Notes under the pieces: generated by a model
Seen by the model: only the letters and a program-made list of their open reading frames with translations
Databases searched by the model: none
What the model was told of the DNA's origin: nothing
Assembly: GCA_030431985.1 (NCBI GenBank)
Contig: JAUIIB010000006.1
Coordinates: forward strand, 1-64,000
Direction of reading: 5' to 3'
Length of the DNA stretch: 64,000 nt
Source of the DNA: Gammaproteobacteria bacterium
GTDB lineage: Bacteria > Pseudomonadota > Gammaproteobacteria > Burkholderiales > Nitrosomonadaceae
In this document: positions 19,686 through 21,427 of the stretch, piece by piece
Position numbering within the stretch: the first letter of the stretch is position 1
How the letters are laid out: each line of letters opens with the position of its first letter
Position numbers and translations under genes: made by a program

Positions 19686-20693
19686 TCAAACATCTACTGA
19701 CAAGAAATTTCCCCGTTCCCGCTCAAATGCAATTGTCAGAAAACGCACACCGACAGAAACTTTAGATTGTTCATTTTTTATATGAACGGCTTCCGCAATT
19801 GCTCGAAAACTGGGTGCAACTATCTTAATAATGTCATATACATCGAGCGACACTTCTGATAAAAAACGAGCCCCGCGCGGCGATAAGTCCTGAAGTATGC
19901 CTTTAGTTGGTATATCAGGCCAGTAAAGATAAAAATCCAATTCGCCTTGCGCATCAATACGTATATTAGTGCGACGTTTTTGCTTATACAGTTCATCATT
20001 GGCGCAAGGTAACGGGCTTTCGCATACGAAGCATTTGTCACTATCAGGATAAGGGCTTGATTGCTTGGTATATGCAGCGTGACAAAAAATACAATACGAT
20101 GTTGCCTGGCCCAGAATTACAGCGGTCTGATTAACGGAACTTTCATCGCCGGTGCTCTGGTCGGCATTTACCGGCACCAGATTTCGTTCGGAAGATTGCC
20201 AGCCACCCTCAAGAAACGCATCGTAGCGCATGCGCGTTACCGGATTTGAAAGCACCATAAATGCCTCATCCATCAATCCGGCATCCTGATAAGGATGTTC
20301 CTTTAATGCGTTGTAGCTTGCGGTAATAATATCTGCGGATGCATCAGGCTGTATCTGGAGTACACGATAATAATTCCGCCTGTTCACAGACGCTGCGCCA
20401 CTTCCTGCGGGGTTCTGAATCATTCCTGAAGCAAATGGACCGAGACTTAGCATATGAATGGGGTGACGTTCTTGCAATCGACGATCATAAGCAGTCCGTT
20501 TCAACGGATCCTTAAGCACCGTATAAGCAGTATTTAACAAGCCAACCTGCAAATCCGCAAAATCCTGATCGGGGTGCCCTTTAAGCCTCTCGATCAACAC
20601 ATGATAGTTCGCCTTGATTACTGCCAACGGCGCATCTGGCTGTGCATATAACGTTCGATATAAATTACGCCTTTCTTTCATGAAGTAATCCAT
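19686..20693 (-). CDS. Tandem J-domain / four-cysteine / PilZ protein
   Basis: This 335-residue soluble protein combines modules rarely seen together. Residues about 10-72 form a J-domain with H40-P41-D42; residues about 106-160 form a second, degenerate J-domain with HPY at 133-135. A pair of CxxC motifs (C201/C204 and C221/C224) looks like a zinc ribbon. Residues about 238-325 form a PilZ domain with R241-TNI-R245 and D269-L-S271-PR-G274, the complete RxxxR and DxSxxG c-di-GMP-binding pattern. It may link c-di-GMP to Hsp70 (DnaK) recruitment, which is inference. It stands alone, about 190 bases from a divergent gene. The start at M1 has no strong ribosome binding site; M5 is an alternative. 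Confidence 0.82.
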   Translation of the reverse strand: MDYFMKERRNLYRTLYAQPDAPLAVIKANYHVLIERLKGHPDQDFADLQVGLLNTAYTVLKDPLKRTAYDRRLQERHPIHMLSLGPFASGMIQNPAGSGAASVNRRNYYRVLQIQPDASADIITASYNALKEHPYQDAGLMDEAFMVLSNPVTRMRYDAFLEGGWQSSERNLVPVNADQSTGDESSVNQTAVILGQATSYCIFCHAAYTKQSSPYPDSDKCFVCESPLPCANDELYKQKRRTNIRIDAQGELDFYLYWPDIPTKGILQDLSPRGARFLSEVSLDVYDIIKIVAPSFRAIAEAVHIKNEQSKVSVGVRFLTIAFERERGNFLSVDV

Positions 20694-20956
20694 TGCTGAC
20701 AGTTTTTACTATTTTGGACTAATCCTTACTATAAATCCAGCTTAGATTAATCAAATTATCACAGAAATCGACTTCAAAATCAGAAACTGTAAAAACAGCC
20801 GTTAACACAATATCTTAGACTTAAATTTAGTCAATTAGTTTCTGATACGCAACAACACAGGCAGGATCAGCATTTTGATTTATAATGGGAATGTTTATCT
20901 ATTATCGAATGTTATATCGTACCGCAGCATCCAGAACGAAGCTTTCAGAATACCGT

Positions 20957-21427
20957 ATGACTGTATTTTCAAATAAAACCAGATACCTTTTGGTGTTACC
21001 GCTATTATTTGTGCTATTGCTTGAGTTGTGCACATTTTCACAACCCACTCTCGCGGGTAAAGATGCGACCAAACCTAATACGTCTACACAACAAAATCCA
21101 TATGAACTGCCCTCAACTGTAATTCAGAGACTTAAAATCGACGCCGGCTTCGGCTGGGGAATTTTTAGTGGACGCATCTACAACGGCAACAGTGATTATA
21201 CGATTACACATCTTATTGTCAGTATGGAACCCGTTCACGATCATCATACCGCGGATATGGCACATCACGCAGACAACTCATCACATCAATCCCGCATTCA
21301 CCAAATCGACATGAACCTAAAACCGCTCACCCACGGCGCTATTTCAATGGCGTTAGATGATGATGTGGCACATGTTCACAACTTCAATTGGAAAGTGCTT
21401 CAGGCATTCGGGTACAAGCCTGAGTAG
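20957..21427 (+). CDS. Secreted or membrane-anchored His-rich hypothetical protein
   Basis: From ATG 20957 the product is 156 residues with a signal peptide or anchor (YLLVLPLLFVLLLELCTF) and a mature part that contains a histidine-rich stretch (HDHHTADMAHHADNSSH). The segment GIFSGRIYNGNSDYTITHLIV looks like a small beta-sandwich strand pair. An upstream ATG at 20885 would add 24 residues before the hydrophobic segment, which fits a signal peptide less well. No family recognised; the His-rich loop suggests metal binding in the periplasm. Convergent with nadB. Confidence 0.6.
   Translation: MTVFSNKTRYLLVLPLLFVLLLELCTFSQPTLAGKDATKPNTSTQQNPYELPSTVIQRLKIDAGFGWGIFSGRIYNGNSDYTITHLIVSMEPVHDHHTADMAHHADNSSHQSRIHQIDMNLKPLTHGAISMALDDDVAHVHNFNWKVLQAFGYKPE

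Follow-up and report, generated by a model that had tools for sequence, protein, structure and literature searches.

PilZ domains joined to the Hsp70 chaperone system are known from Myxococcus xanthus. The accessible part of PMC10313047 describes two PilZ-DnaK chaperones of this organism, CsdK1 and CsdK2, with CdbS, a PilZ protein, as the client that they are thought to stabilise. CsdK2 has the full c-di-GMP motif, and its interaction with CdbS is independent of c-di-GMP binding. The available text of PMC8316039 counts 24 PilZ proteins in M. xanthus, of which four have a DnaK or DnaJ domain; deletion of all 24 PilZ genes gave motility defects only for plpA, pixA and pixB and developmental defects only for pkn1 and pixB. 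On the side of the J-domains, the excerpt available from PMC11349236 states that the HPD tripeptide is required for Hsp70 stimulation and that HPD-less J-like proteins can act without Hsp70. Related systems are the mitochondrial Pam18/Pam16, where a J-domain is paired with an HPD-less J-like domain, and TbPam18, a J-domain in which HPD has been lost and which seems to function independently of Hsp70.

Here we describe a protein from a 64,000-nucleotide window (the whole stretch of DNA analysed) that carries two J-domains (J1 and J2), a four-Cys segment (Cys4) and a PilZ domain on a single chain. As in CsdK1 and CsdK2, PilZ is joined to the Hsp70 system, but whereas those proteins bear it N-terminally on DnaK itself (PMC10313047, part of the text), the window protein bears it C-terminally, with J-domains and Cys4. 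The DnaK domains of the CsdK type are missing: a Pfam search up to E 10 returned three families, DnaJ, PilZ and RPT, and neither the nucleotide-binding nor the substrate-binding domain of Hsp70. The M. xanthus PilZ proteins with DnaK or DnaJ domains show the same kind of join, a likeness drawn from their description in PMC8316039, the available text of which gives no domain order, Cys4 or tandem J-domains. Pam18 and Pam16 are two membrane proteins, whereas the window protein is a single chain with a PilZ domain. With canonical (class A) DnaJ it has in common the fold of J1 and the HPD; it differs in that the four CxxCxGxG repeats of class A are absent, only two CxxC pairs (CIFC and CFVC, with no GxG after them) preceding the PilZ domain. 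The features of class C J-domain proteins are present, namely a J-fold (in J1 and J2) and HPD (in J1). The PilZ fold is shared with YcgR, Alg44, BcsA and PA0012; the output part, here J-domains, differs from the partner domains of those four.

In the open-access literature (the search covered no subscription papers) we found no account of the J-Cys4-PilZ family or of its two-J form. Four papers (PMC4403809, PMC10490939, PMC7811196 and PMC4971617) mention both PilZ and DnaJ, but apart from one another in the text available. The joining of PilZ to DnaK or DnaJ is thus already known in Myxococcus, while the J-Cys4-PilZ family and its HPD pattern appear to be undescribed in the open literature. 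Our best explanation, to which we give about even chances, is that the window protein acts by itself in the cytoplasm as a c-di-GMP receptor whose PilZ domain and Cys4 knuckle are carried by J-domain modules. If true, there is a direct link between c-di-GMP and the Hsp70 system, or J-domains that have become independent of it, and this in several phyla rather than in Myxococcus alone.

The gene and its parts, with the evidence that delimits each, are as follows.

19686..20693, minus strand: whole gene, J1-J2-Cys4-PilZ (open reading frame, 335 aa as listed)
20478..20666, minus strand: J1, residues 10-72, J-domain with HPD (Pfam DnaJ at 10-70; AlphaFold2; VIA-align)
20568..20576, minus strand: HPD tripeptide of J1, residues 40-42 (alignment)
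20205..20381, minus strand: J2, residues 105-163, HPD-less J-like domain, its helix II-III stretch 9 residues shorter than that of J1 (second Pfam DnaJ stretch; AlphaFold2; Foldseek; VIA-align)
20022..20093, minus strand: four-Cys segment, residues 201-224 (C201, C204, C221, C224), zinc-ribbon-like (alignment; AlphaFold2)
19695..19982, minus strand: PilZ domain, residues 238-333, with R241xxxR245 and D269xS271xxG274 (alignment; Foldseek; VIA-align)

The reading frame at 19686-20693 (minus strand) is open, and residues are numbered on its 335 amino acids throughout. Judged by the reading frames of relatives, the start codon is probably Met5 (20681) rather than the listed Met1 (20693): aligned relatives have an in-frame Met at the Met5 position, which would place Met1 perhaps four codons early, though this is weak evidence because the scan pattern and the reading scripts favour that start.

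An earlier note, made from the sequence, had proposed that this one protein combines J-domains and a PilZ domain with a segment of four Cys, and Pfam, alignment, AlphaFold2 and comparison with the PDB bear it out. All the residues it named (HPD at 40-42, C201/C204, C221/C224, R241/R245 and D269-S271-G274) lie at those positions, predicted J-folds occupy residues 10-160, where it expected them, and the same domain order recurs in Nitrosomonas and beyond, as its suggested family survey now reveals. Pfam DnaJ matched the window protein at E 9.1e-14 in two stretches; none of the NCBIfam models matched it at cut-off. The AlphaFold2 model, built on an alignment (A3) of 79 rows, has a mean pLDDT of 77.5 and a pTM of 0.58, and both linkers are poorly predicted (pLDDT < 50). 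Ten-residue blocks of J1 reach a pLDDT of about 90-97, those of J2 83-95. In VIA-align, J1 matched 3ucs_C (the CbpA J-domain) with Z 11.8 (2.0 Å over 72 residues) and J2 matched best 4wb7_A with Z 9.9 (2.1 Å over 68), values which for small helical J-domains (Z 9.9-11.8) fall within the program's warning range and perhaps reflect a common arrangement.

The fold evidence for J2 is more modest. Predicted alone from a 52-row alignment, it had an AlphaFold2 pLDDT of 79.8, and Foldseek against the PDB returned no match at E <= 0.001. The top rows were J-domains all the same (best 2ctp, E 1.9e-3), and among the matches listed most are named DnaJ/Hsp40 J-domains, while the others are chimeras or chains from large assemblies. 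The assignment of J2 is firmer than these scores suggest because the sequence matches as well, in the second Pfam DnaJ stretch.

Relatives were gathered with an alignment (A1), a scan of species genomes with the window protein alone having found none. In 84,980 species genomes the A1 scan confirmed 117 loci, and the 80 best were retained; 78 of these (two rows dropped) and the window protein make up the 79 members of A3. The pattern scanned for, [MK]x[EN]RRN[FYL]YR[IT], is a motif of the N-terminus, so that relatives without it escape and its invariance in A3 is by construction. Titles naming Nitrosomonas or Nitrosomonadaceae account for 41 of the 78 relatives. Others are named as Gammaproteobacteria, Legionella waltersii, Methyloglobulus and Desulfotignum, and the labels of metagenome-assembled genomes (MAGs) include Proteobacteria, Desulfohalobiaceae, Acidobacteria, Nitrospirae, Thermodesulfovibrio and Deferribacteres.

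Among 61 genomes near that of the window, 32 have some match at E <= 0.001, in part plain J-domains; read manually, the family is present in 28 of 37 genomes of the genus, the window's own included, as a one-J form in G009 and a split gene in G023. A one-J form is also present in G051, from another family of the same order. Further afield, strong matches (E <= 1e-32) to a profile of the C-terminal part occur in 8 of 300 genomes of an order sample and in 2 of 398 of a phylum sample, each count including the own genome and leaving out weaker matches (12 order-sample and 30 phylum-sample genomes). In a class sample, at least about 16 of 369 genomes, own included, have a member, counted as matches running past the J-domain. 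Since the PilZ domain scores near or below the Pfam cut-off, members of the family readily escape notice. Two MAGs, OFTM190 (L106/L107) and F1-120-MAGs074 (L097/L122), have two two-J copies each, and in Nitrosomonas MAG HTM.4 the family gene is split by a frameshift (L117, read as the same gene as L026).

The members of A3 fall into two forms, one-J (n = 27) and two-J (n = 52, the window protein among them). A quick tree from which the HPD columns were left out requires one change for the two-J form (SH-aLRT 97); in this tree 20 of 76 inner branches are left open, long branches meet and single distant rows are placed unsurely, and the counts given here are of sequences, many of them closely related.

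The C-terminal part, which would sense c-di-GMP, is kept in the family. All four Cys are present in 79 of 79 aligned members, and the segment that holds them (pLDDT blocks 66-79) resembles a zinc ribbon and is a putative zinc site. RxxxR and [DN]xSxxG form the known c-di-GMP motif of PilZ domains. The first is found in 79 of 79 aligned members and the second in 77 of 79, L119 and L121 deviating with ELTPVG and EVTPIG; the window protein has both, on a predicted beta-barrel as in PilZ receptors (pLDDT blocks 86-95). The best Foldseek matches of the whole model in the PDB are PilZ domains, many solved as complexes with c-di-GMP, and the PilZ part matched cellulose synthase with c-di-GMP (4p00_A) at E 4.5e-5 and the YcgR PilZ domain with c-di-GMP (5y6g) at 4.4e-4. 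In VIA-align the C-terminal part matched PA0012 with c-di-GMP (8u0i) with Z 9.7 (2.8 Å over 78). From motif and model we infer that the PilZ domain of the family would bind c-di-GMP.

A barrel that binds proteins in place of c-di-GMP, with Cys4 and the J-domains forming a scaffold unrelated to the nucleotide, is to our mind very unlikely. It would fit the low Pfam score of the window protein (E 0.0059; 17.3 bits, below the gathering score of 22.5) and the recovery of PilZ at E <= 0.01 in 56 of 79 members, DnaJ being recovered in 79 of 79. It also has a precedent in PlpA of M. xanthus, reported in the available text of PMC8316039 as lacking c-di-GMP binding despite conserved PilZ residues. Against it stand the near-invariance of both halves of the motif, a PilZ dN/dS of 0.10-0.18 and the PilZ domains, many with c-di-GMP, that head the Foldseek results.

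The HPD of the J part seems to have been lost often in the two-J branch. Among one-J members, J1 has HPD in 26 of 27, the remaining one reading HPK. In two-J members HPD is present in J1 in 25 of 52, including the window protein, and absent in 27, where the tripeptide is HPE (8 members), YPE (5), RAD (4), HPN (2) or, once each, CPD, CPG, RPD, RID, RSD, RPN, NED and RVD. The difference between the forms gives a Fisher p of 1e-5 when sequences, which are not independent, are counted. On the quick tree the HPD state changes at least 8 times overall and at least 7 times inside the two-J branch, gain and loss being indistinguishable in such counts. HPD is present in the 13 two-J rows that fall outside the large Nitrosomonas clade; since nearly all one-J members have it as well, repeated loss within the Nitrosomonas clade is the simpler reading.

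Two checks bear on this pattern. HPD is found in all of nine further one-J readings obtained through BLAST in place of the N-terminal motif, although several of these proteins also stand in A3; the reading pattern recovered 9 of the 10 loci. The control was canonical DnaJ from the same genus and order, which has HPD by alignment at 30 of 30 loci, a favourable draw in that the J-proteins with the best scores were taken. With HPD, HPE, RAD and other tripeptides occurring naturally in proteins that are otherwise alike, the family makes a ready-made experiment on what J-domains do without HPD.

Selection on each part was estimated as dN/dS, pooled over overlapping pairs (19 pairs of HPD-less members and 13 of members with HPD). 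J1 gave 0.14 in HPD-less members vs 0.13 in those with HPD, and J2 0.15 vs 0.13. The corresponding values were 0.10 vs 0.18 for PilZ, 0.09 vs 0.12 for Cys4 and 0.27 vs 0.41 for the linker. J1 stays under purifying selection without HPD and is not decaying. Given HPD in only 25 of 52 members, at least 7 changes and a J1 still under purifying selection, DnaK stimulation is probably not the conserved output of the two-J branch.

These results divide the proposal of the earlier note that c-di-GMP controls the recruitment of DnaK: it is reasonable for the one-J members and is not supported as a conserved function of the two-J form. In its widest version, every member would be a c-di-GMP-controlled DnaK co-chaperone, with J1 recruiting and stimulating DnaK, PilZ as the on/off switch and J2 a relic. 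The HPD of the window protein and of almost all one-J members speaks for this, as do the match of J1 to a DnaK-bound J-domain (5nro_B; Z 9.5, 1.2 Å over 61) and the existence of PilZ-DnaK chaperones in M. xanthus (PMC10313047, accessible part). We consider it unlikely, if well short of far-fetched, since HPD is missing from over half of the two-J members with many changes on the tree and no relaxation of J1. In addition, helix II of J1 (residues 30-40) is two residues longer before HPD, with Y-x9-H, than in E. coli DnaJ, with Y-x7-H. J2 is hardly a relic either: its constraint is as strong as that of J1 (dN/dS 0.13-0.15), and nine of its residues (N107, Y109, R110, Q115, D117, I123, Y127, R154 and Y157) are invariant in 52 of 52 members.

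In the window protein only the first J-domain keeps HPD, as the earlier note had it, and in the two-J members as a whole no J2 has it (0 of 52). The HPY named there for the second J-domain does exist, at residues 133-135 of the window protein, but it is not a conserved degenerate HPD: column 133 varies across the 52 members (N in 20, S in 11, D in 9, others in fewer) and the loop is shortened, J2 having 8-11 residues fewer than J1 (9 in 43 of 52) between the helix II Tyr and the helix III Ala. J2 thus has the Pam16-like combination of a J-fold without HPD, with modest fold scores.

That every aligned two-J member has one J1 and one HPD-less J2, that J2 is as constrained as J1 and that the form has a single origin on the quick tree would all suit an intramolecular pair, in which J2 docks on J1 as Pam16 does on Pam18 and keeps it inactive, c-di-GMP releases or tightens the contact, and HPD-less lineages use it as a DnaK-independent switch. 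TbPam18 and the J-like TbPam16, thought to be Hsp70-independent in the excerpt available from PMC11349236, offer a precedent. The pTM of the whole model is 0.58 and the J1-J2 contact is hypothetical; we regard this arrangement as decidedly unlikely. A combined version, in which the protein is a one-chain Pam18/Pam16-like unit, c-di-GMP switches the pairing of J1 (with HPD) and J2 (without), and Nitrosomonas has repeatedly lost HPD to arrive at a DnaK-independent c-di-GMP adaptor, strikes us as unlikely.

The mechanism that we favour keeps to the receptor with J-domain modules. The constant element of the family would be the c-di-GMP receptor (PilZ and Cys4) joined to a J-fold, and c-di-GMP at PilZ would alter how the J part meets its partner. 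For the one-J form the partner would most likely be DnaK, in which case c-di-GMP would gate or target the work of Hsp70; one-J forms are probably DnaK adaptors. In the two-J branch, J1 and J2 may be kept mainly as protein-binding modules, DnaK stimulation being an option retained by some members (possibly the window protein) and discarded by others; it seems dispensable in roughly half of the two-J members of A3. The best reading of the Nitrosomonas two-J forms is that they are drifting towards a DnaK-independent adaptor. As the window protein keeps HPD, it may still stimulate DnaK.

Genomic context offered little guidance as to partners. Same-strand reading frames of at least 90 aa lie within 60 nt upstream at 4 of 69 loci and downstream at 1 of 75 (simple ORF caller), and the gene is usually solitary, which is what a receptor acting in trans would lead one to expect. 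Of the 60 largest clusters of neighbours at the 79 loci, the family itself set aside, none joins the Nitrosomonas loci with more than two others; with no such cluster and close same-strand frames being rare, no partner could be named from gene neighbourhood. The link to motility or matrix assembly raised in the earlier note found no pointer among the neighbours scanned (nine cluster representatives and one window ORF). A search for sigma-32-like (heat-shock) sites upstream of 76 members gave no signal, with a mean of 4.33 mismatches against 4.30 in shuffled sequence.

The recurrent neighbours in Nitrosomonas encode, in loci out of 79, DUF2325 (27), ArsR (26), ferritin (26), a metallo-beta-lactamase fold (22), a BLH/PTP phosphatase (18), Sulf_transp (15), DUF6691 (15), TauE (13) and BLH_phosphatase with Pyr_redox (11), and have the look of a sulfide block inherited in common. 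The block stands beside the family gene in many of loci L071-L104, e.g. L080:11771-14234 and L096:9968-11351. The flanks in the window differ; from their translations we take them to be glycyl-tRNA synthetase subunits and L-aspartate oxidase. At 20885-21427 of the window lies a frame of 180 aa, divergent to the gene and hydrophobic over a stretch close to the N-terminus, for which Pfam gave nothing at E <= 0.001.

The c-di-GMP setting was read from GGDEF matches across the 37 genomes of the genus. Carriers of the family gene have a median of 25.5 (n = 28) vs 9 in non-carriers (n = 9; Mann-Whitney p 1e-4, kinship ignored), an exception being G004, a genome 75% complete with 24 matches in which no family gene was found. 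The window's own genome has 25 GGDEF matches, one other Pfam PilZ match at E <= 0.001 (that of the window protein itself being too weak for this search) and J-domain matches in three proteins, the window protein included.
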